From: Synechococcales cyanobacterium S06
Lineage (GTDB): Bacteria > Cyanobacteriota > Cyanobacteriia > Cyanobacteriales > JAABRE01
Length of the DNA: 53,099 nucleotides
Direction: 5' to 3'
Assembly (NCBI GenBank): GCA_011391125.1
Contig: JAABRE010000032.1
Span: forward strand, 1-53,099
Part shown: positions 3,536 through 49,349 of the stretch, in pieces
Position numbering within the stretch: the stretch's first letter is position 1
Layout of the letters: each line of letters opens with the position of its first letter
Notes under the pieces: generated by a model
Databases searched by the model: none
What the model was told of the DNA's origin: nothing
What the model saw: the letters and a program-made list of their open reading frames with translations, nothing else
Program-made: the position numbers and the translations under genes

Positions 3536-3882
3536 GGTAAGAAGTAAAAAGTAAGAAGTAAGAAGTATATAAATTGAGGTTTTTTGTACTATAACACTTT
3601 ACTCTTAAGGAGGATGTGGTCATTCACGAAGTAAGAAGTAAGTACCTAAGCAAAATTAATGGTGAAAATAAATAAGGTTTGTTGTTGCGCTTTAGCGCAC
3701 TTTTAGCGCTAAAGCGCAACAACGAACTTTTACATTAGACGAATTGCAGATTGTAGCCCGTTGCAATGCCCACTCCAATCTTTAATTTTAAAAGTAATAA
3801 ATGTTATTAAATCAAATAAACAATATAGAAATAAAAGCTCTGAAATTAATTAACAGCAAGCGTTATAGCACTTTCTGTTAAT
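3536..3882. other. Repeat-rich spacer between petA end and antiporter start
   Basis: This spacer contains a short AAGAAGTA tandem run (about 3539-3570, echoed at 3630-3645) and one family B hairpin listed separately (3677-3727). The longer element, starting with CCTAAGCAAAATTAAT at 3645, shares its arms with the copy at 6169-6291. No gene is visible. The upstream region of the antiporter should lie in its left part. Confidence 0.5.
3677..3727. repeat. Family B hairpin repeat (GCGCTTTAGCGC core)
   Basis: Inverted arms GTTTGTTGTTGCGCTTTAGC and GCTAAAGCGCAACAACGAAC surround a short loop, giving a long near-perfect hairpin. Within each arm GCGCTTTAGCGC is itself close to palindromic. The flanks (CCTAAGCAAAATTAAT on the left, TTTACATTAGACGAATTG on the right) match, partly in inverse orientation, those of the copy at 6169-6291, so the full element is about 100 bp and MITE-like. 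Confidence 0.85.
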
Positions 3883-3906
3883 AAAAAAACAGGCAAAAAT
3901 GCCTGT
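3883..3906 (-). terminator. Intrinsic terminator of petC-petA
   Basis: On the minus strand, 27 bp past the petA stop codon, ACAGGC-ATTTTT-GCCTGT forms a 6-bp stem followed directly by TTTTTTT. This is a standard rho-independent terminator in the right orientation and position. Confidence 0.85.
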
Positions 3907-3933
3907 GTAAAATGTAAATTATTTTGAATCCAA

Positions 3934-4893
3934 TTAGAAATTCATTTCGGCTGCTTGTACTCTTTCGATTTGTTTTTTCTTGAGAACTAAGAAAATTTGT
4001 GCAAGCATAATTAAAGCAATAAACAGAACTAAACCGGTAACACGGGCAGGACTTTGTAGTACAACTTCCGTGTCTTTTTGACCAAAACCACCCACATTTG
4101 GATTGGTGGTTAAAGCTTCACCAGCCGCAACTTGTTGGCCTTCGGCCACGATTAACTCAGGTCCTGCGGGGATGTTTTCAACTACGGTCTTGTCACCAGT
4201 GTTGAGGGAAACTTGATAACCACCAGCTTCATCTTGGCTAATTAGGCTAATTGTACCAGCGACGGAAGCTTTGAACAGGTTATTATTGGTAGGATCACCT
4301 GTGGGATAAAGTTGACCACGACCGCGGTTTGCTCCTAGGTGAACGGAATATTTACCGAAGTGAACACTTTTATCGGTGGCCGGATCGGGAGAGAGTACGG
4401 GGAACACAATTTCTTGATATTGTTCACCGGGTAAAGGACCAACGATGACCACATTATCCATACCTTCTTTATAGGTTTGATAATAAAGTCCTTCGGTTTT
4501 TTCCTTCATTTCTTCGGGAATCCGGTCTTCGGGAGCAATTTTGAAGCCTTCGGGTAACATTAAGACTGCACCCACGTTCAATCCGCCTTTAGAACCATCG
4601 CCCAAGGGCTGTTGACTGTTTAAGTCGTAAGGAATTTTTACTACAGCTTCAAAGACCGTATTCGGTAAAACTGCTTGGGGAATTTCGATTTCCGAAGGTT
4701 TTTTGGCCAGGTGACAGTTAGCGCAAACAATGCGGCCGGTTGCTTCTCTGGGAGTTTCGGGAGCGGTTTGTTGTGCCCAAAATGGATAAGCTGCAGCAGA
4801 TTGGGGTAAGGATAAAACTGTGCCGAGGAAAACTACCACGGTGGCGATCGCCACGAGGACAGTTTTCGATAATTGTTGCAAAGGTGTTCTCAT
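3934..4893 (-). CDS. petA: Cytochrome f of the cytochrome b6f complex
   Basis: This c-type cytochrome passes electrons from the Rieske protein to plastocyanin or cytochrome c6 on the lumenal side of the thylakoid. An export signal ends in SAAA, and the mature chain starts YPFWAQQ, where the Tyr amino group becomes an axial haem ligand. The haem site CANCH follows about 21 residues later. The C-terminus carries one membrane helix ([20 protein letters not shown]) and a basic tail. The longer open frame starts at a TTG (4926), but I prefer the ATG at 4893, preceded by AAGAG, giving 319 residues. It lies downstream of petC on the same strand and is probably co-transcribed with it. Confidence 0.97.
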
Positions 4894-4976
4894 CTCTTGG
4901 TTAAAAATAGTAATAATCTGAGTCAAAGGTAATCTTAATCTGGGGGACAGGTTTGTGGGTCTGTGAGGTCATTTCA

Positions 4977-5036
4977 GTTATCAGTTAACAGTTAACAGTT
5001 ATCAGTTAACAGTTATCAGTTATCAGTTAACAGTTA
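4977..5036. repeat. TTATCAGTTAACAG short direct repeats
   Basis: Several units of the type CAGTTATCAGTTAACAG are placed head to tail between petC and petA. The same words recur at about 21740-21760, 26153-26180 and 51170-51232. They look like a slippage-prone dispersed repeat rather than a regulatory site, although here they lie inside the presumed petC-petA transcript. Confidence 0.7.
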
Positions 5037-5134
5037 TTCTCTCTCACTAAACCGGAGGAAACTTGAAAAAACGACTTATTCTCCTTATTTTTTCCTTGGA
5101 AAAGAGGAGGCCTTACACCGCTTTCTTTGGTCAA

Positions 5135-5677
5135 TTAAGACCACCAAGGATTTTCATCGGTACGAAAATCGGTTTCTGTCCAAGTCGTAAAGCTAACTTT
5201 GTCATCTTCGGTAACAGTTGCGTGAGCTAGGGCCAAAGATAAAGGAGCAGGTCCGCGAACGACTTTACCCGTTGCGTCATATTGGGAACCATGACAAGGA
5301 CAAATAAATTTGTTTTCGCTACCATTCCAAGGAACGACGCAACCTAAGTGAGTGCAAACTGCGTTAATACCATAACTAGCGATGGTGTTTTCGCCTTCGA
5401 CTACCAGATAGGTGGGATCACCTTTGAGACCTTGTGCTAAGGTGCGATCGCCCACTTTATGGGTGGCCAAGAATTGACTAGCAACAACATCATTGCCGAC
5501 AGCGTCTTTGGCGATTACACCACCACCTGCTGCACCCGAAGAAGGAGGGATAAAATACTTAACCACTGGATATAAAGCACCCAGAGCAACCCCTGTAACA
5601 GTACCAAAGGTTAACAAATTCATAAATTGGCGACGACCCATATCGGGGACATCAGAAGAACCAGAAAATTGAGTCAT
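5135..5677 (-). CDS. petC: Rieske iron-sulfur protein of the cytochrome b6f complex
   Basis: The 180-residue product carries the [2Fe-2S] cluster that takes electrons from plastoquinol. CTHLGC (residues 108-113) and CPCHGS (126-131) supply the two Cys and two His ligands and the disulfide pair. The N-terminus has GRRQFMN followed by a hydrophobic stretch ([19 protein letters not shown]), a Tat-type uncleaved anchor, and then the glycine-rich hinge SSGAAGGG. The length is normal for the family. It precedes petA by about 240 bp. tatC, whose product would export this protein, lies nearby at 6534-7298. Confidence 0.97.
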
Positions 5678-5838
5678 AGTTAAACTTCTAATTGTATTCT
5701 TGATTTTTAGTCTTCTGTAAAGCTTTTTTGTCCCGTTACCTTGTCCCTAGAAGGAAAATTCGCGGCGACATTTTGTTAAAAGGTTTACAACTTATTTTAA
5801 ATATTACAAGTTTTTGGACCTTAACCATAATCAGAAAA

Positions 5839-6147
5839 ATGACAGGAACACAATTACATCAAATTTTGTTAGACAAATGGGGTTATTCCTACGATATTCA
5901 ACTGAAAAAGCTCAAGGATCGCCTTTTCTTCCAAGTTATGTGGAAATACTTGGAACAAGCGTCTTTTCCCCTTTCCCAAGACCAATATTTTCAGCATTTG
6001 GAGGATATTTGCAATTATTTGAATGCTTGGGGCGTGGTGGAACAAGTCAAAATCCATTTGGCGGAAACTAAAGAAAAACCCCGACTTGGTAAAGCAGTCA
6101 GTATTCCTTTGGATTTGGGAGAAAGATCTTCGGAGTGGATTGTTTAA
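5839..6147 (+). CDS. DUF3067 family protein
   Basis: A small protein of about 102 residues (MTGTQLHQILLDKWGYSYDI...), matching the cyanobacterial and plastid DUF3067 family, often found beside petC. It has the sequence WGYSYDIQLKKLKDRLFFQVMWKY-type core and no signal peptide or membrane helix. The frame is open back to 5728, but the upstream residues look non-coding. The ATG at 5839 gives the family's usual N-terminus. It is divergent from petC, with about 160 bp between starts. A role in b6f or plastoquinone assembly is only suggested by location. Confidence 0.75.
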   Translation: MTGTQLHQILLDKWGYSYDIQLKKLKDRLFFQVMWKYLEQASFPLSQDQYFQHLEDICNYLNAWGVVEQVKIHLAETKEKPRLGKAVSIPLDLGERSSEWIV

Positions 6148-6168
6148 TAATTGATAAGTAGATAATTA

Positions 6169-6291
6169 CCTAAGCAAAATTAATTATCTAAATGTAAAAG
6201 TTCGTTGTTGCGCTTTAGCGCACTAGATAGCGCTAAAGCGCAACAACCAACCTTCTTTATTTTTCGCAATTAATTTTCCTTCGATACTTAG
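6169..6291. repeat. Family B MITE-like element with long hairpin core
   Basis: The core 6200-6251 pairs GTTCGTTGTTGCGCTTTAGC with GCTAAAGCGCAACAACCAAC. The outer arms are CTAAGCAAAATTAATT on the left and AATTAATTTTCCTTCGATAC...TTAG on the right, an imperfect terminal inverted repeat. The element is related to the one around 3645-3745, largely in inverse orientation. Confidence 0.75.
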
Positions 6292-6324
6292 ATGTCATGA
6301 AAAAATATCAAACAAATTTAGGGA

Positions 6325-6404
6325 AGATGGTGGGTTACGGTGCTATTTATCAATTGTGGGTTTTTCCTCAAAATTAATCTCGCACCTAACCCACCCTACA
6401 AAAT
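6325..6404. repeat. Family C element, first copy of an exact 80-bp direct repeat
   Basis: It begins AGATGGTGGGTTACGG and ends CCTAACCCACCCTACAAAAT, so GGTGGGTTA/TAACCCACC form inverted ends. The 80 bases are identical, by my reading, to 6448-6527, with a 43-bp spacer between the copies. Together with the family B element these fill the 6148-6533 spacer, where I see no gene. Confidence 0.9.
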
Positions 6405-6447
6405 GCTCATTTGTCTAATTTATTTCTGCTCTCGGCATTTTGGGACA

Positions 6448-6527
6448 AGATGGTGGGTTACGGTGCTATTTATCAATTGTGGGTTTTTCCTCAAAATTAA
6501 TCTCGCACCTAACCCACCCTACAAAAT
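6448..6527. repeat. Family C element, second copy of the 80-bp direct repeat
   Basis: Same sequence and orientation as 6325-6404. It ends 7 bp from the tatC stop codon, so transcripts of tatC run into it. Its GGTGGGTTA...TAACCCACC ends may form a long hairpin and could act as a transcript end, though no T-run follows on the minus strand. Confidence 0.9.
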
Positions 6528-6533
6528 TATCAA

Positions 6534-7298
6534 TTATTTGCCTAGTATTTTCACCATGCCAATTCCACCAAAATAGAGGCCTAAAACAGCACCTGCTAAC
6601 AGTGATTGAGTTAAAGGATCGGTTGAAGGGGTAAGCACTGCCCCTAAAATCACCGCTCCTAACACGACATAGCGCCAACCTGCTAACATGATTTGGGAAT
6701 TGATAATGCCGATTAGGCTTAAAAGTAACTGAATTACGGGGATTTGAAAGGCTAAACCCGTACTGAACATTAGTAATAACACAAATTCAAAGTAGCGATC
6801 AATTGACCAAGCTTGCTCCACAACTTCACCACCGTAGGAAATAAAGAAGTTTAAAGCGGCGGGAATTAGGGCAATATACGCAAATCCTAACCCCACTAAA
6901 AATAAAATACCTGAACCGAGTACCACTGGACCGATGATACGTCTTTCTTGGCGAGTAAGTCCGGGTAAAACAAATTGAATAATTTGGTACAAGATGAACG
7001 GACTTGCTAACACGATACCGCTATAACCCGCGACTTTGATGGATACGAAGAAAAATTCCCCCGGTGCTAATTGTAAAAATTTGACCGCTCCGGCAGGTTT
7101 TTCTAGGAGTTGAACCAATGGTTTAACGAAGATGAAACAACCAATGCAGGCGATCGCCACCCCAATTAAACTATAAAAAATTCTTTGTCGTAACTCGTCA
7201 AGATGGTCAAAAAAGGACATTTCCACCTCGTCAGGTAGTTCCTTGAGGTATTCGGCGGATTTGGGGGGGGTGGGGTTTTCTACTTCAGTGGTTGGCAT
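6534..7298 (-). CDS. tatC: Sec-independent (twin-arginine) protein translocase subunit TatC
   Basis: A polytopic membrane protein of 254 residues and the substrate receptor of the Tat pathway, which exports folded proteins such as the Rieske protein PetC encoded nearby. The N-terminus holds the invariant [14 protein letters not shown] block, and six hydrophobic segments follow. FPVP-type and proline-rich features such as [20 protein letters not shown] near the C-terminus are typical. The first about 30 residues are polar with a Pro run (NPTPPKS). No tatA or tatB gene is visible nearby. Confidence 0.96.
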
Positions 7299-7391
7299 TA
7301 TTTTTGATGATTGGGAGTAGTTTTAATTATAATAAGAGGAAAAATCGTTTACCTAATTATATTTCACCAAATTACTTACAGATAATTAATT

Positions 7392-7685
7392 ATGACAATT
7401 TCTCCTCTTAAAACCCGTGAAAAAGCCTCGCAAACCGTTAAAAAGCCTTATCCTAATTACAAAGTGATTGTGCTTAATGACGATTTTAATACTTTTCAAC
7501 ACGTTTCTAGTTGTTTGATGACTTATATTCCAAATATGACCGGCGATCTGGCTTGGGACTTGACCAATCAAGTACATTATGAAGGTCAAGCCATGGTGTG
7601 GGTTGGTCCCCAAGAAATGGCCGAACTTTATCACCAACAATTGAGAAGGGAAGGTTTAACCATGGCTGCTTTAGAAGCTGCTTAA
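7392..7685 (+). CDS. clpS: ATP-dependent Clp protease adaptor ClpS
   Basis: This 97-residue adaptor binds N-degron substrates and delivers them to the ClpC/ClpP protease. The sequence YKVIVLNDDFNTFQHVSSCL contains the NDDxNTF pocket signature (one residue loop variant), and the C-terminal half ALYHQQLRREGLTM-type helix matches cyanobacterial ClpS1. The gene diverges from tatC by 93 bp. Start ATG 7392 gives a normal length with a short disordered N-terminus. No clp gene is adjacent. Confidence 0.95.
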   Translation: MTISPLKTREKASQTVKKPYPNYKVIVLNDDFNTFQHVSSCLMTYIPNMTGDLAWDLTNQVHYEGQAMVWVGPQEMAELYHQQLRREGLTMAALEAA

Positions 7686-7735
7686 ATGATAATTGACCCT
7701 CCCGTACTTACGGTGATCAAAAATACTTATACTTG

Positions 7736-7810
7736 GTAGGGTGGGTTAGCAGCGAGATTGATTTAGATGAAAAACTAATAAGTTTTGATTCGCAGCGTAA
7801 CCCACCATCT
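7736..7810. repeat. Family C element, inverted orientation
   Basis: It reads GTAGGGTGGGTTAGCAGCGA on the left and TTCGCAGCGTAACCCACCAT on the right. Its reverse complement matches the copy at 30972-31051 closely. It lies 50 bp after clpS in the spacer 7686-7945, which holds no gene. Confidence 0.8.
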
Positions 7811-7945
7811 TAAAGATGGTATCCAATTATACATTTTACACCCATAATTTGGGAGAGCCTCTTTTTTTCCGATCAATTATCATTTATCCTAGTATTTATT
7901 GATAACCAAGTTCAGAAAATTTAGTCTTGAGAGATATTTTTAATC

Positions 7946-8272
7946 ATGTTTAGTAAACAACCAAAAGAAAGCAATAAATCGGAAAATCGCGAATTACAGG
8001 ACTTACTTAAAAACAAGGAAACAGGTTTAATTGAAAACGAAATTATTGAACCGGAAACTAAACCAGAATTAGTAAATCTGGTGGAAAAAATAAGCGGGAT
8101 TGTTTCTCCTTATTTTATTGTGTTAGTGGGTTTAATTTTATCCGATGATAACTTTTTGTTCGGGACAATTTTAATTATTGTCGGTATTTTCTCTTTATTA
8201 AAAGTTACCAGTCAAGATTTGAGTAAATTACTTAACTGGTTAAAAAACTTTTTTAGTGGTAGTGATACTTAA
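7946..8272 (+). CDS. Small membrane protein, unknown function
   Basis: The 108-residue product has a charged, disordered N-terminal half (SNKSENRELQDLLKNKETGL) and two adjacent hydrophobic segments (ISGIVSPYFIVLVGLILSDD and FLFGTILIIVGIFSLL). A basic or polar tail follows. I do not recognise a family. It overlaps the end of the convergent exosortase gene by 4 bp. Codon use resembles its neighbours, so it is likely real. Confidence 0.6.
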   Translation: MFSKQPKESNKSENRELQDLLKNKETGLIENEIIEPETKPELVNLVEKISGIVSPYFIVLVGLILSDDNFLFGTILIIVGIFSLLKVTSQDLSKLLNWLKNFFSGSDT

Positions 8273-9150
8273 TCTTCATTGACCATTGTTAATTGATCTA
8301 ATCGATCTATTAATTGCATTAAGAACATTACCAATCCTAACATCATCGCTGAATAAACATCTCCTCCCCAACCGTCATGGATTAAATCAAACATTGAGTC
8401 ATTTCCCGCTCCATGAAAATAGGTTAAGAGGGTATTTCTAATAATATTACCAACTACACTAATCATGGTTGTTCCTATTAACATGAGACTAATTTTTTTA
8501 GAACTGCTTAAATTGTCCGTCCAATATAACAAAATTAAAGCGACATAAAGACTGGTAAATAACATCTTTAAACCAGCACAATAGGGCGCAACTTCAACCA
8601 ATCTTCCCCCGATGGTTAAATAAATTTCTTCCACTTGGACATCAATTCCTAATTGGATTAAGATAAAACCTGCACAACTTGCAATGAATTTTTGCAAAGG
8701 TAAGGTATAAGGTGTTAATAAATAGGGAAAGGAATTTGGTGTAGCTAACCAAACTAATAATAAGGGAAAAAACTGTAATTTGAAACCTTTAATTCCCTTT
8801 AAACACAGGCAAATTCCTGTTAACATAAAGGGAAAAGATAGATTGACAAATTCCCTAACTCCGGTGAAATAGAAAATAGCAGCTATTACTAATAAAGATA
8901 TTCCCACCGGATGAGATTTATCCGCTAAATCTTCCCATTTTTGACGATTTTCCCACACAATATAAGTTGCAAAAGGAAACCCAATTAAAGCATAACTGAA
9001 GTATTCATGTTCAATATTGATACTCTTGTTTAACCAACCATCAATCCAAAATGAAATTACGGGAATATAGAGGATTGTTAATAATCCTAGAATGAATAAA
9101 TTAAATAAATTTTGCTCAATAAATACCGGTAATTTTTGTTTAAGCTCCAT
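8269..9150 (-). CDS. crtB: Cyanoexosortase B
   Basis: A multi-pass membrane transpeptidase that processes C-terminal PEP-CTERM signals of exported proteins. The 293-residue product has about eight hydrophobic segments. The catalytic Cys is in VAPYCAGLKM (C191), the Arg in NIIRNTLL (R238), and candidate His residues are H246 (TYFHG) and H258. The sequence WLNKSINIEHEYFSYALIGF and the EVAPYCAGLKMLFTSLYVAL block are those of the cyanobacterial B type as I recall it (symbol crtB in that family, not phytoene synthase). It starts 12 bp after the aminotransferase gene and is probably co-transcribed. A PEP-CTERM protein lies at 13212-13973. Confidence 0.88.
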   Translation of the reverse strand: MELKQKLPVFIEQNLFNLFILGLLTILYIPVISFWIDGWLNKSINIEHEYFSYALIGFPFATYIVWENRQKWEDLADKSHPVGISLLVIAAIFYFTGVREFVNLSFPFMLTGICLCLKGIKGFKLQFFPLLLVWLATPNSFPYLLTPYTLPLQKFIASCAGFILIQLGIDVQVEEIYLTIGGRLVEVAPYCAGLKMLFTSLYVALILLYWTDNLSSSKKISLMLIGTTMISVVGNIIRNTLLTYFHGAGNDSMFDLIHDGWGGDVYSAMMLGLVMFLMQLIDRLDQLTMVNED

Positions 9151-9162
9151 GACATTATATTC

Positions 9163-10296
9163 CTATTTAGTTACTAATGACTTGATTGTTTTAACGACGA
9201 ATTCAATTTGACTTTCCTCTAAACCCGGATACATGGGTAAAGATAAAATTTGTTCAGACAATAATTCAGCATTGGGAAAATTACCTTTATGATAGCCTAA
9301 AAATTTATAAGCGGGTTGTAGGTGACAGGGTAAGGGATAATGAATACCGGTTTGAATACCGGTTTGGGCTAATTTATTTTGTAATTCATCTCTTGTCAGA
9401 GGACAATTTTCAGTAATTCTGATCACATATAAATGATAAACATGACCTTCATTGGCTAAATTTTTTAAGGGAATTATGCCATTATTTTCTAACTCCTGTA
9501 AACCTAAATCATAGAATTTTCCTGCTTTATTTCTCAGGTTATTCCAGTTAGTTAAATGGGGTAATTTTACGTTTAAAATTGCTGCTTGTATGCTATCTAA
9601 ACGGCTATTTGTACCTAATTCTGTGTGTAAATATTTTTGAGGAGCACCATAATTTCTCAAGGTTTTAACTTGTTGCGCTATTTTTTCACTATTAGTAAGA
9701 ACCATTCCACCATTACCAAATGCTCCTAAATTTTTACTGGGATAAAAACTAAAAGCTGAAGCAATTCCCACACTTCCAGCTATGTAATTGTCCCGATGTG
9801 CTAAATGCGCTTGTGCCGCATCTTCAAAGATTAATAAATTATGTTTTTTGGCGAGGTTTAATAATTCCGTTGGCGAAACCATTTGACCATATAAATGAAC
9901 GGGTAAAATCGCCTTAGTTTTATTAGTAATAACCTGATTTATCGCCGATAAATCGATTAAAGCTGTCTCCAAATCACAATCTACTAAAATTGGTTTTGCT
10001 CCTGCTTTTAAGATACCAATAATAGTAGCAATAAAGGTATTACTAGGAACAATTACCTCGTCATTTTGACCGATGCCACAAGCTTGAAGCCCCATGGCAA
10101 TCCCCTCTGTACCGCTTGCTACTCCGACACCATAGCTAACTCCTGATACTGAACTAAAAGCAGCTTCAAACTCAGTTACCGCTTGACCTAAGACAAAATC
10201 TCCCCGATAAATGACAGAATTAATCGCAGTTTTAAACTCATTTTCTAGGGGATTATGCTGATAGGATAAATCGACAAAAGGAATTTTATTTAACAT
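9163..10296 (-). CDS. DegT/DnrJ/EryC1/StrS-family sugar aminotransferase
   Basis: A 377-residue PLP enzyme that would transaminate a nucleotide-linked keto sugar for surface polysaccharide or glycan synthesis. SFYPSKNLGAFGNGG contains the Schiff-base Lys (K188), IFEDAAQAH holds the Asp contacting the PLP ring (D159), and GVASGTEGIAMGL forms the cofactor phosphate site. The C-terminal domain has the usual GIHYPLPCHLQPAY motif. It sits 12 bp upstream of the exosortase gene, a pairing that fits export and decoration of cell-surface material, though that link is inference. The substrate cannot be told. Confidence 0.92.
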   Translation of the reverse strand: MLNKIPFVDLSYQHNPLENEFKTAINSVIYRGDFVLGQAVTEFEAAFSSVSGVSYGVGVASGTEGIAMGLQACGIGQNDEVIVPSNTFIATIIGILKAGAKPILVDCDLETALIDLSAINQVITNKTKAILPVHLYGQMVSPTELLNLAKKHNLLIFEDAAQAHLAHRDNYIAGSVGIASAFSFYPSKNLGAFGNGGMVLTNSEKIAQQVKTLRNYGAPQKYLHTELGTNSRLDSIQAAILNVKLPHLTNWNNLRNKAGKFYDLGLQELENNGIIPLKNLANEGHVYHLYVIRITENCPLTRDELQNKLAQTGIQTGIHYPLPCHLQPAYKFLGYHKGNFPNAELLSEQILSLPMYPGLEESQIEFVVKTIKSLVTK

Positions 10297-10359
10297 AAAA
10301 AAATAAATTGGAGTAAAATTGTATTTTTGTAAAAAAACCTAATATTTTTTGGTTAAATA

Positions 10360-11244
10360 TTAATTTTTGGGGTCAAGTGCATCCCGAAGTCCATCACCAA
10401 TATAATTAAAACTAAGGACCGTTAAAAAGATAGCTAAACCGGGGAAAATTGCCATATAAGGAGCAGAAGTTAGATAATTTTGTGCATCAAATAACATTCT
10501 TCCCCAAGTGGGAACATCCGGGGGAAAACCTAACCCTAAAAAGCTTAAAGTTGACTCGGTTATTATAGCATTACCCACGGATAAAGTGGCCGCCACAATA
10601 ATAATATTTAACATATTGGGTAAAATATGATAAATAATTATTCTAAGAGGATTAGCTCCCATGGAACGTGCAGCCATGACAAATTCCATTTCTCTTAATT
10701 TTAAGAAATTTGCTCTGACTAATCTCGCTACTGACATCCAATTTAAACTGCCAATTACTAAGACTATTAAAATAAAAATACCAGTTTCTGGACCAGCAAT
10801 TTTTTTCAGAGTATCCCGAAATAAGTAAACTATTAATAATAGTAATGGTAACTGAGGTAAAGAGAGAAATAAGTCGGTCAAACGCATTAATAAACTGTCA
10901 ATTATTCCGCCATAAAAACCGGCGATCGCCCCAATTAATGTACCTAAAAAAATGGCTACCAACATAGCAGTAATACCAACAGTTAAAGAAATACGGCCAC
11001 CAACTAAAATGCGTGCCAATTGATCTTGACCTAAGTCATTTGTGCCAAAAGGATGTTGCCAACTAGGGGATAAAGTAGATTGACTAAAATCAATTTTGTC
11101 CATAGACATAGGATAAATTAGCGGACCGATAATCAGACTAATTATTATTATTAATAAACAGATTATTCCGAAGATTGCTGTTTTATTTTGGCTATATTTC
11201 TGCCAAATATTGGCAACTATTTTTGTCAATGGCGATTGATTCAT
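10360..11244 (-). CDS. ABC transporter permease of the OppC/DppC type
   Basis: The 294-residue inner-membrane permease has an OppC-type N-terminal segment (FGIICLLIIIISLIIGPLIY) and five further helices. The ATPase-contact (EAA) loop is MEFVMAARSMGANPLRIIIY followed by HILPNM. The C-terminus LSFNYIGDGLRDALDPK is classic for dipeptide/oligopeptide/nickel uptake permeases. No partner permease, ATPase or binding protein is in the window, so the substrate is unknown; the partners are presumably elsewhere in the genome. It precedes the DegT gene by 63 bp on the same strand. Confidence 0.92.
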   Translation of the reverse strand: MNQSPLTKIVANIWQKYSQNKTAIFGIICLLIIIISLIIGPLIYPMSMDKIDFSQSTLSPSWQHPFGTNDLGQDQLARILVGGRISLTVGITAMLVAIFLGTLIGAIAGFYGGIIDSLLMRLTDLFLSLPQLPLLLLIVYLFRDTLKKIAGPETGIFILIVLVIGSLNWMSVARLVRANFLKLREMEFVMAARSMGANPLRIIIYHILPNMLNIIIVAATLSVGNAIITESTLSFLGLGFPPDVPTWGRMLFDAQNYLTSAPYMAIFPGLAIFLTVLSFNYIGDGLRDALDPKN

Positions 11245-11353
11245 CTATTTTATCCCACCGAATAAATCAAGGTTAAAAAATTTTAAGTGAAAACTGCATA
11301 ATTTTTGCATTCTATCAGGATAAAGAGAAGATAACCCGATCAATCTAAAAACA

Positions 11354-11752
11354 ATGAATTTAGCCGAAAAACAAGCACAAATTAATCAATTAAAACAACT
11401 GTTGAGCTTAAAATTGGATAATCCGCCATCGGTGAAACTGCAAATCAAACAAATTAACCTGATTCAAAAGCAGTTAAAAGCCATTAAAAAAGAGCTTAAT
11501 TTGATGATCAAACAAATCAATCAACAGGCAACACAATCAACTCCTGATAGCATCATTTCCGTTGGTTTAGATTTATTTGGTAAGCGAAAATTAGCCGGTA
11601 GTGTGAGATCACACACTAGAAAAAATATTCAAGTAGAAAAAATTAACTTAAGACAACCCTATTTAGAACTTAAAGACCAGATTGACCAACTAATTTTAGC
11701 CGGAGACCAACTTAAATTAAAAGGAGCAGAATATTTATTAGAAAATAGTTAA
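11354..11752 (+). CDS. Coiled-coil protein, unknown function
   Basis: The 132-residue product is nearly all Lys/Gln/Leu-rich helix. Residues 1-60 form a likely coiled coil (EKQAQINQLKQLLSLKLDNP and following). A short central stretch IISVGLDLFGKRKLAGSVRS is followed by a second helix. There is no signal peptide or membrane segment. I do not recognise a family; it looks like a conserved cyanobacterial hypothetical. It is divergent from the ABC permease by 110 bp. Confidence 0.6.
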   Translation: MNLAEKQAQINQLKQLLSLKLDNPPSVKLQIKQINLIQKQLKAIKKELNLMIKQINQQATQSTPDSIISVGLDLFGKRKLAGSVRSHTRKNIQVEKINLRQPYLELKDQIDQLILAGDQLKLKGAEYLLENS

Positions 11753-11833
11753 ATTTGTCCGTAATTCCTTTAACTACATCTGTAGTAGAGATCAGTATAA
11801 TTTATTAAGCAAATTGAATGTTGGTATCAAGTT

Positions 11834-13072
11834 ATGAAAAACAATAATTTTCCTGTGCTAAAATCTTCGGTTATCGTAGCTGGAATTATCTCCCTTACTG
11901 GATTAATCACGCTTCCTGAAGTTGCTTTGGCCAAAAGTAAAAGTCAAATTGCTCAAAGTGCTATTCCTGTAACGGTACAAATTAATTCCATTTCTGGTGG
12001 TGGTTCTGGTGTTATTATTAATCAAAAAGCGGCACCAGGTGGCACAATTTACACGGTTTTAACTGCTAATCATGTGGTGCAAAATGCGGGTGTAAAATAT
12101 CAGGTTAAAACCCATACTGGTGATACTTATGAGGTAATGAGTGTGGATCATTATCTAAAAAATAAAAGCAAAGACCCTGATTTAGCTGTCATTACTTTTA
12201 AAACTACGGATGTTTATCCTACCGCCAATTTAGGAGATTCCAATCAAGCAGGTTTTGGTTATAGTATTGCTATTTTTGGTTATCCCTATTTAGATGATAA
12301 TCAACAAGCCGAACAACGGCCTTTTGTCTATTCTTCGGGAGAATTGAATAATCCTAAGGGTCAACGCCCCAATGGCTATGACTGGTTATACAATGCTGTT
12401 ACCCAAAAGGGAATGAGTGGTGGTCCTGTTTTTGATGAAAACGGCGCTGTTGTTGCTATTCATGGTCGGGGTGAACAAGTCCAAGGTAAAGCCGCTTTTA
12501 ATGCTGGTATTCCCATCAATACATTTATTGCTTTAGCTCCATATCTACCACGAACTGAGGCGATCGCCTTGAATACACCTTCTAGCAACAGTCCCTATGA
12601 AAGCGGTTCAAATCCAGTCCCCACGGAGAGTGCTTATAATAACAACGATCGCTATGCGGGAGCTTCCCATTTTTATTGTGACGCAACGGGCGAAACGCCG
12701 AAAACCATGGCCCGTAACGTAGTTAATAAACAGGAAATCACTTTAATCGAATGGAAAGAGGACCCGAAATTTAAGTGGTCAATGACACCAAAAGAACGTT
12801 GTCAAACAGTTTCGGGACGTTTTCAAAGGGCTTATTATGAAAATAAATTAGATTATCTGAAAACAGGGGAAAGTGGAGGCCTACCTGTTATTTGTGGTGT
12901 CACGAATGAAGATCAACCCTGTAGCGGAAGTGATGTTTTAGTGACTTTCCAACCCAATACGAATGCACAGGAATGGTTAAATGGCTTTTTGCAAGGTAAT
13001 ACCATGACTGTTAGGGGAGAAACTCAAGGGACAAAAAACATGAGAATGGTACTATCTAATATCTCTGATTAA
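11834..13072 (+). CDS. Exported trypsin-like serine protease fused to a COP23 domain
   Basis: The 412-residue product has a signal peptide or N-terminal anchor (residues 10-33, ending EVALA). A chymotrypsin-fold protease follows, with catalytic residues in LTANHVV (H80), KDPDLAVI (D116) and GMSGGPVF (S195). From about residue 275 it continues into a cysteine-containing COP23-type domain (YCDATGETPKTMARN..., WMTPKERC-like and PVICGV...PCSGSDVLVTF), named after a circadian-oscillating cyanothece protein. The protein should act in the periplasm or lumen. An HIP1 octamer lies within the linker. The gene ends before a clear terminator at 13160. Confidence 0.85.
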   Translation: MKNNNFPVLKSSVIVAGIISLTGLITLPEVALAKSKSQIAQSAIPVTVQINSISGGGSGVIINQKAAPGGTIYTVLTANHVVQNAGVKYQVKTHTGDTYEVMSVDHYLKNKSKDPDLAVITFKTTDVYPTANLGDSNQAGFGYSIAIFGYPYLDDNQQAEQRPFVYSSGELNNPKGQRPNGYDWLYNAVTQKGMSGGPVFDENGAVVAIHGRGEQVQGKAAFNAGIPINTFIALAPYLPRTEAIALNTPSSNSPYESGSNPVPTESAYNNNDRYAGASHFYCDATGETPKTMARNVVNKQEITLIEWKEDPKFKWSMTPKERCQTVSGRFQRAYYENKLDYLKTGESGGLPVICGVTNEDQPCSGSDVLVTFQPNTNAQEWLNGFLQGNTMTVRGETQGTKNMRMVLSNISD

Positions 13073-13159
13073 TAGTCTTCTCTAGCGGTTACGGTTAACC
13101 CAAAACTAACCACCCGCTAATTGAGAAAACGCAATCCAAAACCGATCATACAATCCTTG

Positions 13160-13193
13160 CAGACTAATTATACAATTTAGTCTGTATTTTTTT
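13160..13193 (+). terminator. Intrinsic terminator after the protease gene
   Basis: CAGACTAA (13160-13167) and TTAGTCTG (13177-13184) form a perfect 8-bp stem with a 9-nt loop. It is followed on the plus strand by TATTTTTTT. It is well placed to end the protease transcript before the convergent PEP-CTERM gene. Confidence 0.85.
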
Positions 13194-13211
13194 GTTTGGC
13201 GTTTTCCCCTA

Positions 13212-13973
13212 TTATTGAAGATTGCCTTTACTGACAGCAATACCGATGCCAAAGGCTATACATAATCCTAAAAGACTAGACGATTCGGGAACAGTTTGGG
13301 TTGTATAAGTAGCAAATCCGTTTTGTGTAAAAGAATTATATCCTTGGGTTCCAGTCACATTCCCCGCCAAGGCTTCATTAGAGCGAAAAGCGCTGTTGGC
13401 AATATAAGTGCCAAACAGCGTAAAAGCTTGACCCGATCCCGGTGTTAAGCCAATATTAGCTAAATCGAAGGAAAAAGAGTAGTTAGTGGCTGTACTGTTG
13501 GCTAATGGAGTCAAGTTAACTGAGGTCAAGAAACCAAGGCTGTTAGCCCCTCCTGTTGCCAATGACCAAAGACCCCCAAAGTTATCGCTTGTTGGTCCGA
13601 GAGCAATAACGAAATCAGGGCTGAAATTGGCATCAAAGGTCATTGTACTGCGCTGTGAACCATCAAATCCAGAAATTGCCTTCCGCAACCCATCGGCGCT
13701 ATCGGAAAAACCTGACGTATTTGCAAAGCCACCACTCACGGAATCGATATAAATCACTAAGGCATCGTTGAAGTTGCCGCTACCCCGTGTTAGAGTACCA
13801 GAAACAGTTGAGCCATCGTCGGAAAGGGTCAAGCTGCCTTGTCCGATCGCCCCACCAAAGCCATTGCTTCCATTTCCGTTAAAAACAGCAGCTGAAACCG
13901 GAAGGGAGCAGACAGAGAATCCTAGTGTAGCCATTACTACCAATTTTGGACAAATAGGATGATATTTCATCAT
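13212..13973 (-). CDS. Exported protein with PEP-CTERM sorting signal
   Basis: A 253-residue protein with an N-terminal signal peptide (LVVMATLGFSVCSLPVSAA). The body is rich in Gly, Ser, Asn and Thr and looks like a beta-rich surface or extracellular domain. The C-terminus reads TVPESSSLLGLCIAFGIGIA and ends VSKGNLQ. This is the three-part PEP-CTERM signal (PE motif, hydrophobic helix, short basic tail) recognised by exosortases. The cyanoexosortase at 8269-9150 is therefore its likely processing enzyme. The function of the mature domain is unknown. Confidence 0.82.
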   Translation of the reverse strand: MMKYHPICPKLVVMATLGFSVCSLPVSAAVFNGNGSNGFGGAIGQGSLTLSDDGSTVSGTLTRGSGNFNDALVIYIDSVSGGFANTSGFSDSADGLRKAISGFDGSQRSTMTFDANFSPDFVIALGPTSDNFGGLWSLATGGANSLGFLTSVNLTPLANSTATNYSFSFDLANIGLTPGSGQAFTLFGTYIANSAFRSNEALAGNVTGTQGYNSFTQNGFATYTTQTVPESSSLLGLCIAFGIGIAVSKGNLQ

Positions 13974-14193: not shown

Positions 14194-15999
14194 TTATTTG
14201 GCGGGTTTTTTCTTGAAATAAACCTCCATAACTTGACGGACTTTTGGTCCTTGAGTAGAACCACCACCACCACCGGAATGTTCCCCAAAGGCCACCACGA
14301 CTATTTCGGGTTTGTCGTAGGGAGCAAAACCGCCAAACCAAGTGTGTACCTGTTTCGGAGGTGCTTCTGCTGTACCACTTTTGCCAGCAGCTGGCGGTAA
14401 CGTTGGGGTGTTTAAAGCTTTACCAGTTCCTCCATCCACCACTGCTCGCAGCCCTTTTCTTAGGGTGTCAACGGTGCTAGGTTTCAGGTTGAGGGATTGT
14501 TTCCATTCCTTCGCGTCTCGATTATCTTTCAATAAATGGGGTTTTACTCGATAACCGCCATTGGCCGGAACGGCAAACATAACCGCAATTTGTAAAGGTG
14601 TAGCTTGGGTGAAACCTTGACCAATGGACATATTGACGGTATCTCCTTCTGACCAGTCCCAGTTATAAACTCGTTTTTTCCATTCTCCATCGGCAATTAG
14701 GCCTTTTGCTTCATCTGGTAATTCGATGCCGGTTCTTTCGCCAAAACCATAGCGACGAGACCAGTCAATTAAAGCAGGTCCGCGTACCCCTCGTCCTACT
14801 TGACCAAAAAAGGTATTACTACTCATGGCCATGGCCCTCACATGGCCAATTGGTCCGAAACCGGCTCTATTCCAGTCATGGAATCTCACTCCAGCCACGG
14901 CAATGTATGCGGAAGTCCTTAAAATGACATTCGGGGGGAATTTGCCCGTTTCCATTCCAGCGGTAGCTGTGACGATTTTAAACGTGGAAGCTGGTGGAAA
15001 TCCCCGCATCGCTCTATTGATAAAAGGATCGCCTTTGGCCTGTAATTTTTTCCAAATGTCGGGAGTGACTCGTCCGGAAAAGACGTTAGGATCAAATTTG
15101 GGGTTGCTGACCATGGCCAATACGCCGCCATCTCTGGGATCTAGGGCAACAATAGCCCCCAATTTATCGCCTAATGCTGCTTCGGCGGCTTTTTGTAATT
15201 CTAAATCAAGGGTGAGGGTGACATCATTACCCGCTTTGGGTTGGATTTCTTCTAATAGTCGCACGGTTTTTCCCGCTCCGTTAACTTCGACTTGTTGACC
15301 TCCCCATTCTCCCCGCAGTTGTGACTCGAAAGCTGATTCCACACCCATTTTGCCGATAATATCACCCATGCGATAGCCTTCGGCTTTTTTCTCTTTTAAG
15401 GTTTCCGCATCAATTTCTCTGGTATAGCCCAAAACGTGGGAGGCCATTTCTTTGTGGGGATAGTAGCGCAAAGAATCGATGTCGATTTTAACCCCATCCA
15501 ATTCTTGGTGATATTCTTCAATGGCGGTCATTTGCTCAGGGGTAAGGTTTCGCGCTATTCTCACGATGGTGGAAGAAGTGTAGCCTGCTTGTTCCACGGT
15601 GCGCTGTATTTCGGTTTCTGGTATGCCTAAAATTTCAGATAAACGACGTAGGGTTGTTGGCCACGTTTCTTTTTTCTGGGCAATCGGCCAAATAAAGGCC
15701 GAATAAGATAAACGTGTGCTTGCTAATACTTTACCATGGCGATCGAAAATATTTCCTCGGACTGGTGGTTTTGGAATAATTCGAATGCGGTTATCATCAG
15801 CTTGTTGTAAATATTTTTTACCATTTAAGAGTTGTAGATAAGCCAAACGCGTACCCATACCACCAAACAAAAATAAACTTACTAACAGCATGATAAACAC
15901 CGATTGATATTGGTTACCAACGCTTAGTTCTCTTTTGTTATCTTGTTTACGGACATTTGATTTTTGTTTTTTGCCAGAAGAAGGTTGAAAGATCGTCAT
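14194..15999 (-). CDS. mrdA: Penicillin-binding protein 2 (peptidoglycan transpeptidase)
   Basis: This class B PBP cross-links peptidoglycan during side-wall growth. The 601 residues comprise a cytosolic tail, one membrane anchor (about 33-47), a dimerisation region starting PPVRGNIFDRHGKVLAS, and a transpeptidase domain. The active-site motifs are STFK (338-341), SSN (393-395) and KSGT (540-543). The length and the IIGKMGVESAFE block fit MrdA rather than FtsI. No rodA or mreBCD gene is adjacent. The coding strand has a palindrome just past the stop. Confidence 0.93.
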   Translation of the reverse strand: MTIFQPSSGKKQKSNVRKQDNKRELSVGNQYQSVFIMLLVSLFLFGGMGTRLAYLQLLNGKKYLQQADDNRIRIIPKPPVRGNIFDRHGKVLASTRLSYSAFIWPIAQKKETWPTTLRRLSEILGIPETEIQRTVEQAGYTSSTIVRIARNLTPEQMTAIEEYHQELDGVKIDIDSLRYYPHKEMASHVLGYTREIDAETLKEKKAEGYRMGDIIGKMGVESAFESQLRGEWGGQQVEVNGAGKTVRLLEEIQPKAGNDVTLTLDLELQKAAEAALGDKLGAIVALDPRDGGVLAMVSNPKFDPNVFSGRVTPDIWKKLQAKGDPFINRAMRGFPPASTFKIVTATAGMETGKFPPNVILRTSAYIAVAGVRFHDWNRAGFGPIGHVRAMAMSSNTFFGQVGRGVRGPALIDWSRRYGFGERTGIELPDEAKGLIADGEWKKRVYNWDWSEGDTVNMSIGQGFTQATPLQIAVMFAVPANGGYRVKPHLLKDNRDAKEWKQSLNLKPSTVDTLRKGLRAVVDGGTGKALNTPTLPPAAGKSGTAEAPPKQVHTWFGGFAPYDKPEIVVVAFGEHSGGGGGSTQGPKVRQVMEVYFKKKPAK

Positions 16000-16143
16000 A
16001 TAATCAAGGTATTTTAAACCATTTACTCTTATTAACTATTTTTGTTTAATTTTATCAGTATTGTGAAAATATTCAGGATTTTTGCCCTTCATAAAATGAT
16101 TAATTTTATTAGCTTAATTTATATTATCAAATTAATTCTGATC

Positions 16144-16234
16144 TAGCATTTTCTGATTAAGTATTATATACCCCTCACCCCCTCATCCCAAAGGGAGAGG
16201 AGGAAAAAGAGGCCAAATATCAAAAAAAATGCTA
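16144..16234. repeat. Family D MITE-like element overlapping a gene end
   Basis: Ends TAGCATTTTCTGAT and ATCAAAAAAAATGCTA are imperfect inverted repeats. The centre is the G/C-skewed CCCCTCATCCCAAAGGGAGAGG. Related copies lie at 19177-19279 and 20192-20296. The right end overlaps the stop codon of the DALR gene: on the minus strand the repeat's TAG is the stop. Confidence 0.75.
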
Positions 16235-17011
16235 TAATTGCTGGAGTAATAAGTAGGTTAAATAAACTAATCGTAATCTAGCTTGAGCTAAAGGCAAATT
16301 TTCCTGTTTTACAGAACCAAAAATGCGACAATATCTTTCAAATTCCCAGAATATTTCACTTAATTTTCTCCCTAATTTGAGAGATTTTTTTTGGTCTTTC
16401 CAGTTATCAATAACTGTTATTATTTCACTAATTAAATTTTTTTCTTCCTGCTTAAATAATAAAGAATAGTGATTTTCTTCTGGTTTTATCCAGCATAAAG
16501 TCATCAGATTATACTCACTATTTTTTAGTTTAATTAATTGCTGCTCTTGACCTAAATTTAGTAAGGAATAACAACGATTTAAGGTTAACTTAATTAAAAA
16601 TGTCTCATTATTTTCTATATTTTTACTTGTCTTTTTTCCTTGATTTTCAAAGATTTTTTTCGCTACAATATCTAAATAAATATCAATATTTTCGATCATA
16701 AACTCAATCATTCCTGATGGTAACACAGAAATAGTAATATCTAAATTTGGTGCTTTTTCACCAGGTAATTTAGTTAGTTCAGTCACCAAATTATGGGCAA
16801 TTTCTACGGATTTTAAACTTGTTTTACTCGCCAAATAAAGGGCGATCGCACTACGATAAGTTACATTGGTATAATTTTTACACTGAGATAACCGTATCTC
16901 TGATAAGGTCTCAGAATCGGCTAAAGTTCCGATGCTCCTTAACTTAGCTTCGATTAATTCCTGAAGATAAATGCCATTTAAACCAAGAAAAGCAGGTATT
17001 TTTTGATACAT
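16232..17011 (-). CDS. DALR anticodon-binding-domain protein (arginyl-tRNA synthetase C-terminus-like)
   Basis: The 259-residue product lacks any aminoacyl-tRNA synthetase catalytic motif (no HIGH or KMSKS). Its C-terminal third, including the terminal LAQARLRLVYLTYLLLQQL, resembles the DALR helical domain that closes arginyl- and glycyl-tRNA synthetases. N-terminal residues 1-125 are of unknown fold. Such free-standing proteins occur in cyanobacteria; their role is unknown. It is divergent from the Crp/Fnr gene, with 50 bp between starts, so the two probably share a control region. Family assignment is by eye. Confidence 0.55.
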   Translation of the reverse strand: MYQKIPAFLGLNGIYLQELIEAKLRSIGTLADSETLSEIRLSQCKNYTNVTYRSAIALYLASKTSLKSVEIAHNLVTELTKLPGEKAPNLDITISVLPSGMIEFMIENIDIYLDIVAKKIFENQGKKTSKNIENNETFLIKLTLNRCYSLLNLGQEQQLIKLKNSEYNLMTLCWIKPEENHYSLLFKQEEKNLISEIITVIDNWKDQKKSLKLGRKLSEIFWEFERYCRIFGSVKQENLPLAQARLRLVYLTYLLLQQL

Positions 17012-17061
17012 GAGACAGTGTATAATATTTAAGTATAACTTTTATTTTCTAATTTTTAAAT

Positions 17062-17760
17062 ATGGAAACATCAAACTTAGCTTTAGAAACCTCTCGACCT
17101 TTTTTAACTTGGCAAGTAATTTTGAAATGGGGAAAAGACCACTATCGCGAACGCAATTTTAACAAAGATGAACGTATCCCCACTCGTCCTGGTTTATTAT
17201 ATTTAGTGGAAAAAGGAGCAGTAAGAATAGTAGGAGAAACCCAAGAAAGTCCTCTCAATAAATATAATAAAAATACCGTAATTTCTAACTCCGAAAACGA
17301 AAAAGATGAAGCTTTTTTAGGTTTTATGGTGGGTGGAGAACCCTTTGAAATTGTCGTTAAAGCTCCCTATAATATTCAAGCATACTCTCATGTTGATAAT
17401 ACATCTGTTATTTGGTTATATTGGCAGGATATTGATAATTGGCCTCATTTTAAAGGCGAAGTTTTTGAAGCTTTTCGTCGTCAACATCAGCGGAAATTAC
17501 TTTGGTTAAGTGTGTTAGGCCAAAAACATACCATCGATCGCCTTTTTGGTTTTCTTACTCTTTTAATTGAGGAATATGGAGCACCTTACAACCATGGTTA
17601 TCGTCTCCCCTATCCCTTAACTCACGCTCAAATTGGCTCGGCGATTGGTTCAACCCGCGTCACAGTCACCCGTTTAATGGGAAAATTGCGCCAAATGGGC
17701 TTAATTAGCATCGAGGAAGACGGTTTAATTTGTCTCCCCAATCTTTCAGTTAATAATTGA
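17062..17760 (+). CDS. Crp/Fnr-family transcriptional regulator
   Basis: The 232-residue product has a cyclic-nucleotide-binding-like beta roll (about 20-145) with an unusual Asn/Lys-rich insertion near residues 65-80. A long dimer helix and a C-terminal helix-turn-helix follow: LTHAQIGSAIGSTRVTVTRL, whose GSTRVTVTR recognition helix resembles that of NtcA. The N-terminal domain does not match NtcA, so I do not call it that. The cAMP-binding RxS phosphate cassette is not evident. It may regulate the divergent DALR gene or itself. Confidence 0.88.
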   Translation: METSNLALETSRPFLTWQVILKWGKDHYRERNFNKDERIPTRPGLLYLVEKGAVRIVGETQESPLNKYNKNTVISNSENEKDEAFLGFMVGGEPFEIVVKAPYNIQAYSHVDNTSVIWLYWQDIDNWPHFKGEVFEAFRRQHQRKLLWLSVLGQKHTIDRLFGFLTLLIEEYGAPYNHGYRLPYPLTHAQIGSAIGSTRVTVTRLMGKLRQMGLISIEEDGLICLPNLSVNN

Positions 17761-47540: not shown

Positions 47541-47900
47541 TTATTTCTTAATTTTGTGCTTAAGTTGGGGAAAATTCGGCAGCTTTCCCCGCCAAACACC
47601 GAACATAAACAGGACACAGACAATAAAATAACCAGAAGTAATTAATCCATTCAAATACATTAACCTAAAAGTAACTAAATCAGATGTATTTACCGCTCCA
47701 GTCCACAGTAAAATATAAGCGACTAACCAACTTATACCTAAACTTAAAGACACACGACTAACCTTTTTTTCCTCAGAAGTGCTACCACCTTGGTACAGAG
47801 TCAAAAAAGCAGGCAAACAACCAATTATCGGCAGTAAAATTATTAACAACTTAAGGAATTTCAGCTTATTTTCTTTTAGTGGATCATCATTATTAAACAT
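47541..47900 (-). CDS. Small membrane protein, unknown function
   Basis: The 119-residue protein has three to four hydrophobic segments (KFLKLLIILLPIIGCLPAFL, VSRVSLSLGISWLVAYILLW, and LMYLNGLITSGYFIVCVLFM), a GGSTSEEKKVSR loop and a basic tail. I do not recognise a family; it has the look of a conserved cyanobacterial membrane protein. Its ATG is only 6 bp from the start of the divergent fusion gene, so its leader must lie within that gene or it is translated without one. Confidence 0.65.
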   Translation of the reverse strand: MFNNDDPLKENKLKFLKLLIILLPIIGCLPAFLTLYQGGSTSEEKKVSRVSLSLGISWLVAYILLWTGAVNTSDLVTFRLMYLNGLITSGYFIVCVLFMFGVWRGKLPNFPQLKHKIKK

Positions 47901-47906
47901 AAAACT

Positions 47907-49349
47907 ATGGATATTTCAACTATTATTTTGGCTGGTGGAAAAAGTAAGCGTATGGGTCAGGATAAGGCCTTAATTAAGATTAATAATATACCCTTATTAA
48001 AACATATTTGTAGCGAAGCACAAAAATTAACCTCCCAAGTTTATATTATTACCTCTTGGCCAGAAAAATATCAGCCTATTTTACCTGATAACTGTACCTT
48101 AATTAAGGAAACAACCCTGGCCGGTCCCTTAATTGCTTTTAGTGAAGCTTTAAGACAAATTACCACAGAATGGGTCTTACTTTTAGCCTGTGATTTAGGG
48201 AATTTTAACAGCGAAGAATTAGCACAATTTGCCCATCAATTAGGAGAACTTAACTCAGATTATATTGCCTATCTTCCCCTTAATCCTAAAGGTTTTGAAC
48301 CCCTTTGTGGTTTTTATCGTCGTAATTGTCTTCCCTTATTAGACGATTTTATTAATCAGGGAGGTAACTCCTTTCAAAAGTGGTTAAACCAACATAAAAT
48401 AGCCGAATTACCTCTTACTAATCGGGAAATATTAGTTAATTGCAATAATCCTCAAGACTTACAATTAATTAATAACTTTCAACCACAAATTACCAAAGAT
48501 GGCTCATTTACCTTTTTTTCACCCGAATTTAATGAGTCTTTCCATTCCCATTATGGCGCAAAACAAGAAGCACTTTATAAATTTGTGATCCCCTGTAAAT
48601 TACCCGAATTAGCAACACAAACTAACTCGATTAAATTGCTTGACATTTGCTATGGTTTAGGGTATAATACCGCAGCTGCTTTAGCAACAATTTGGCAAAT
48701 TAACCCCCAATGTCACATAGAATTAATGGCCTTAGAATTGAATGAAAATGTACCAAATCAAGCGATCAAATCTAACTTACTTAATGAGTGGAATGAGCCA
48801 ATTCCCGAATTATTAAGCCAATTATCCACGGATAAATATCTCAAAAATGAATTAATTTCTGCTCATATTTTTTATGGTGATGCTAGAGTTACAATACAGG
48901 AAATTATTAACCGAAATTTTATCGCAGATGCCATTTTTCTCGACCCTTTTTCACCCCCAAAATGTCCTCAACTTTGGACAGTAGATTTCCTTAAATTGGT
49001 CACAAAATGTATCAACTTAAATGGTATTTTAGCCACTTATTCCTGTGCTGCTTCTGTTCGTACGGCCTTACAATTAACAGGACTAAAAATCGGGGCCAGT
49101 GCTAGTGTCGGCCGGCGATCGCCCGGTACCATCGCCAGCTATAATAACCCTAATCTACCTCCTTTGTCCCTTCAGGAATTAGAACATTTACAAACCAAAG
49201 CCTCTATACCCTACCGAGATATTCAATTAATAAATACTGCCGAGAAAATTTTAGCAAAAAGGTTGCAAGAACAAAGTACCAGTACCCTGGAGTCAACCAG
49301 TCAGTGGAAAAAACGTTGGGAAAAACCAGCAATATGCAAAAAGGAATAG
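47907..49349 (+). CDS. Fusion of MobA-like guanylyltransferase and MnmC-like methyltransferase
   Basis: The 480 residues join two enzymes. Residues 1-190 are a MobA-type nucleotidyltransferase, IILAGGKSKRMGQDKALIKI with LLLACDLGNF and FEPLCGFYR, which adds GMP to molybdenum cofactor. From about 198 the chain is an MnmC-like SAM methyltransferase: FTFFSPEFNESFHSHYGAKQ, LLDICYGLGYNTAAALATIW (SAM loop) and AIFLDPFSPPKCPQLWTVDF. No FAD domain is present, so it would do only the methyl-transfer step at wobble uridine. One open frame with no sign of a frameshift. A divergent gene starts 6 bp away. Confidence 0.85.
   Translation: MDISTIILAGGKSKRMGQDKALIKINNIPLLKHICSEAQKLTSQVYIITSWPEKYQPILPDNCTLIKETTLAGPLIAFSEALRQITTEWVLLLACDLGNFNSEELAQFAHQLGELNSDYIAYLPLNPKGFEPLCGFYRRNCLPLLDDFINQGGNSFQKWLNQHKIAELPLTNREILVNCNNPQDLQLINNFQPQITKDGSFTFFSPEFNESFHSHYGAKQEALYKFVIPCKLPELATQTNSIKLLDICYGLGYNTAAALATIWQINPQCHIELMALELNENVPNQAIKSNLLNEWNEPIPELLSQLSTDKYLKNELISAHIFYGDARVTIQEIINRNFIADAIFLDPFSPPKCPQLWTVDFLKLVTKCINLNGILATYSCAASVRTALQLTGLKIGASASVGRRSPGTIASYNNPNLPPLSLQELEHLQTKASIPYRDIQLINTAEKILAKRLQEQSTSTLESTSQWKKRWEKPAICKKE

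Follow-up and report, generated by a model that had tools for sequence, protein, structure and literature searches.

The fused frame and its two domains

The window, i.e. the whole stretch of DNA that was analysed (53,099 nucleotides), contains the following features at the locus.

47541..47900, minus strand: divergent ORF of 119 amino acids upstream of mobA, outside the fusion; without a match in Pfam or NCBIfam
47907..49349, plus strand: fused mobA-mnmC2 ORF, 480 amino acids, ATG start, no internal stop
47907..48470, plus strand: MobA domain (molybdenum cofactor guanylyltransferase), residues 1-188, assigned by PRK02726.1, by alignment with the separate MobA proteins of relatives and by pLDDT mostly above 85
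48471..48497, plus strand: junction or linker, residues 189-197 (NNFQPQITK), at the position where relatives have a mobA stop and an mnmC2 start
48498..49331, plus strand: MnmC2 domain (DUF752, Methyltransf_30), about residues 198-475, assigned by the match to 3vyw and by alignment with separate proteins of 52-63% identity
49659..50708, plus strand: response regulator with an HD domain, the downstream neighbour, kept in several relatives

The preliminary description had proposed that a MobA-like domain and an MnmC-like methyltransferase share one 480-residue frame, and had placed the junction near codons 190-200. The open reading frame and the Pfam, NCBIfam and structure matches bear out the former, and the boundary was found at about residues 189-197. 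The motifs quoted in that description are present in the frame. The profiles of both domains match: PF12804 and PRK02726.1 for MobA, PF05430 and, below its cut-off, the MnmC2 model NF033855.1 for MnmC/DUF752.

In the Pfam search of the fused protein PF12804 covers residues 6-163 (E 3e-27). The MobA half passes the curated NCBIfam cut-off of PRK02726.1 (259.6 bits vs 179), carries the LAGGxSxRMGxDK motif, with the nucleotide-binding motif LAGGKSKRMGQDK, and has the MobA fold; the E. coli MobA structures 1fr9 and 1e5k span residues 3-185. The MnmC2 domain opens with DGSFTFFSPEF and contains the SAM motif DICYGLGYN as well as LDPFSPPKCPQLWT. PF05430 (Methyltransf_30) matches residues 310-412 (E 1e-26, 93.6 bits vs a cut-off of 22). 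The score against the NCBIfam MnmC2 model NF033855.1 is below the cut-off (92.8 bits vs 136). However, the separate MnmC2 homologues of relatives also fall below it (103-106 bits), and thus this model seems to be tuned to the MnmC type. The best solved relative of the fused protein is 3vyw, the Aquifex MnmC2 (residues 194-448, E 1.5e-44).

An AlphaFold2 model of the fused protein, built with 20 sequences, has a mean pLDDT of 87.8 and a pTM of 0.62, with pLDDT below 50 at residues 189-200. As modelled, the protein is composed of two confident domains and a disordered or loose linker, and the mutual orientation of the domains is undefined. In Foldseek comparisons the MnmC2 half matches 3vyw (5.5e-25, TM 0.76 by target) and the MobA half matches 1e5k (TM 0.82 by target).

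The gene pair in related genomes

The sample of relatives comprised 40 genomes, that is, the host and 39 relatives. It contains no further genome of the same genus or family, and the nearest relatives belong to the same order. The mobA and mnmC2 genes are adjacent and on the same strand in five of the 39 relatives (G003, G013, G015, G017, G024); in the rest they are apart, or only one of them is present. Wider searches and inspection of individual loci yielded further head-to-tail pairs (G342, G353, G303, G315, G339, G065, G085, G102, G232, G062). Separate adjacent genes are thus found in at least 15 genomes of Cyanobacteriales from 8 families, often at the same locus. The intergenic gaps range from -4 bp, where the mobA stop overlaps the mnmC2 start as ATGA (G015, G303, G315), to 298 bp.

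The flanks are partly conserved too. The ATG of the 119-aa ORF lies 6 bp from the mobA ATG, and this head-to-head layout is kept in several relatives. Since this ORF and the downstream response regulator are common to several relatives, the fused frame sits at the old site of the gene pair. Elsewhere in the window, a gene encoding a NADAR-domain protein (PF08719, 45310-45762) lies near a LytR/CpsA-type gene.

No second uninterrupted fusion was observed among the matches listed for 389 genomes of the order; the list of full-length matches is headed by the window, followed by G342, G003, G353 and G065, each of them interrupted by one or two stops. The matches listed for a phylum sample (386 genomes, overlapping the order sample, strict E-value) and for 50 genomes of family f7 contain no additional fusion. 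A fusion far more diverged than the listed matches could escape such searches, given the strict E-value in the phylum sample. Scans of genome-contig and viral-contig collections revealed no second copy, and the literature searched contains no MobA–MnmC2 fusion. Open frames of 529-672 aa had suggested fusions in several other genomes, but in G013, G102, G085 and G062 there are stops between two ORFs, and the apparent fusion in G052 involves an unrelated neighbour gene. In a motif check of the loci retrieved by that stage, the only hit was the ORF in the window.

The preliminary description had proposed looking for the same fusion in relatives; it did not turn up in any of the other genomes searched. 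It had also named, as evidence against a real fusion, separate adjacent genes in relatives together with a base error at the junction. Such relatives do exist, whereas a base error is unlikely.

Two irregularities of the pair were observed in other lineages. Most genomes of genus g2 (family f2; G001, G032, G091 and others) have a MobA match and no MnmC2 match; other genomes of this family keep both, so mnmC2 has apparently been lost in the genus. In G065 (locus L036, 2374-2895) the mobA frame ends early, lacks the NCNTP motif, and stops just before mnmC2, whereas its congener G015 has the full mobA end and the ATGA overlap. The mobA end of G065 is damaged or misassembled.

The junction

In the relatives mobA stops shortly after LFNCNTPxDL, and mnmC2 starts 8-13 codons ahead of DGS[F/Y]TFF, mostly with ATG. 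In the window NCNNPQDLQLI reads on through NNFQPQITK into DGSFTFF. The FQPQ of the linker matches FKPQ of the mnmC2 product in locus L062; accordingly, the first mnmC2 codons and the start, as well as the mobA stop, are lacking in the window. In the alignment of this region, where read-through rows of adjacent gene pairs served as bridges, the junction is shorter by seven columns (codons) than in loci L034 and L035, with the stop counted in the rows of both. The relatives from which the deletion size is estimated are only 56-57% identical. The fusion was probably caused by one short deletion, as far as can be judged from this alignment.

Separate translation of MnmC2 finds no likely signal within the frame. 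There are no in-frame ATG, GTG or TTG codons from codon 150 until GTG-227, and the latter is too late for an internal start. ATT codons at positions 188 and 195 are remote candidates for this role. A perfect sigma-70 consensus, TTGACA-17-TATAAT, was found at 48640-48668, but it lies inside the methyltransferase domain and thus could not drive an intact MnmC2. It falls on the conserved LDICYGLGYN codons, and the same site reads 12/12 in L034, L035 and L037; this match is probably driven by the protein sequence.

One possibility is that the organism has two adjacent genes, as its relatives do, and that a base or a few bases of the junction are missing from the draft assembly, which consists of 168 contigs. 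We consider this unlikely. Of the 768 single-base edits tested between codon 166 and the DGS motif, only 8 produce a stop with a nearby start. Seven of these are located upstream of codon 183 and would corrupt the sequence NCNNPQDL at the conserved end of MobA. The remaining one, a G inserted after codon 188, would make MobA end in LQLIE and let MnmC2 begin with TTG 10 codons ahead of DGS, which is plausible as an arrangement of two genes. On the other hand, neither the stop nor the start is present, and the frame is still open.

Origin of the fusion

Thus it is very likely that the ORF is a lineage-specific fusion of a linked gene pair; its occurrence in one genome only counts against this. 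The ancestor presumably had separate mobA and mnmC2 genes arranged head to tail, as observed in the relatives. A short in-frame deletion, or an equivalent event, would then have removed the mobA stop, the mnmC2 start and a few N-terminal codons, as suggested by the junction. The predicted result is a single polypeptide in which two enzymes fold independently and are joined by a flexible linker. The preliminary description had mentioned an accident of adjacent genes as one origin of the fusion, and this is the version favoured here, given that the genes adjoin at the same locus in relatives and are fused nowhere else in the genomes searched.

The separate mobA and mnmC2 genes of Cyanobacteriales (e.g. 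G342, G003, G015) encode the same proteins in the same order, several with the same flanks. However, each of these genes has its own stop and start, whereas the window has one frame. The Aquifex aeolicus protein MnmC2/DUF752 (3vyw), for which Kitamura et al. (2012) are cited in PMC9976899 and PMC6313347, is like the MnmC2 half of the fused protein a methyltransferase without the MnmC1 oxidase domain, with 31-36% identity in the Foldseek alignments; unlike that half, it has no MobA attached. E. coli MnmC (3awi, 3ps9) has a related methyltransferase domain, but it is fused to the FAD oxidase MnmC1 rather than to MobA. Judging by the names of NCBIfam models, MobA is joined to a second enzyme in MobA/MobB (PRK14489, PRK14490) and MoaC/MobA (PRK14500) proteins as well; these partners, unlike MnmC2, come from the same cofactor pathway. 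In the fused protein two known enzymes form a new combination of domains, the origin of which is ordinary.

By homology, the MobA half would transfer GMP onto molybdopterin for the molybdoenzymes of the host, and the MnmC2 half would carry out the SAM-dependent conversion of nm5U34, supplied by MnmEG, to mnm5U34. The two halves most likely act independently, each doing the job of its separate homologue, if their sequences are a guide. The likeliest functional consequence would be only that both enzymes are made in equal amounts; catalytic coupling is not implied.

An alternative is that the fusion was selected for function, through a physical coupling of molybdenum cofactor synthesis to tRNA U34 modification that would serve regulation or a shared supply. 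Both halves are conserved, and members of at least 8 families have the two genes side by side, in some cases with overlapping stop and start, which hints at co-expression. However, most of the 39 relatives have the genes apart or only one of them, and several genomes of genus g2 have MobA without an MnmC2 match. In addition, the predicted linker is disordered, with no defined orientation of the domains, and to our knowledge MobA and MnmC2 have no common substrate. We regard such selection as distinctly improbable. The preliminary description had also offered regulation by way of guanine nucleotides or a sulfur relay; such a link is unsupported, given the rarity of adjacency (5/39).

The fusion of the linked pair, probably accidental, is a case of two unrelated housekeeping enzymes merging where their genes adjoin. 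It is also a warning for annotation: inference from domain fusions ('Rosetta stone') would join pathways that the evidence from relatives leaves otherwise unlinked.

The host genome

The host genome is a 4.8-Mb draft, 99.98% complete, and the window is its contig C94. The fused ORF is the sole match to either half. Since both parts are single-copy, any need for the two functions must be filled by the fused protein. MnmA is present, as are MnmE and MnmG, which make the nm5U substrate. No MnmC1 oxidase above its cut-off was observed in the host genome. This fits a published survey, which lists Cyanobacteria among the organisms with orphan mnmC(m) (PMC9976899).

Three molybdoenzyme genes (PF00384) were found in the host genome. 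They encode NarG (TIGR01580), an FdhF/YdeP-type protein, and a protein that is NarB/NasA-like by the nearest models, over no cut-off.

The last possibility concerning function is that the fusion ties molybdenum-dependent nitrogen use to decoding, as MobA would serve nitrate reductases and other molybdoenzymes, and MnmC2 would act on the ammonium-derived nm5U34 of MnmEG. We set this reading, which is very unlikely, beside a rare respiratory nitrate reductase cluster in the same organism.

Finally, that one half has been decaying and riding along since the fusion is hardly credible: although the window differs at four MobA positions (S14K, L100F, W130F, V165I) where the 14 others are invariant, genomes with separate genes have similar counts of such changes (0-5), the MobA/MnmC2 identity ratio of 0.875 is normal (0.82-0.96 in others), and the genome has no second copy of either half. 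On the sequence level, the conservation of both halves is that of separate homologues, with few broken invariant positions.

The nitrate reductase cluster lies outside the window (contig C66:21000-38500, locus L080, coordinates 3455-13572 and 14920-17211 of the locus) and has the order narH-narJ-narI-narK-cytochrome-like ORF-ORF-narG. The narG score is 1565 bits, and narH, narJ and narI are above their cut-offs. The NarB-like gene is about 1.3 kb from the cluster. Including the host, narG was detected in just 4 of 243 Cyanobacteriales genomes.
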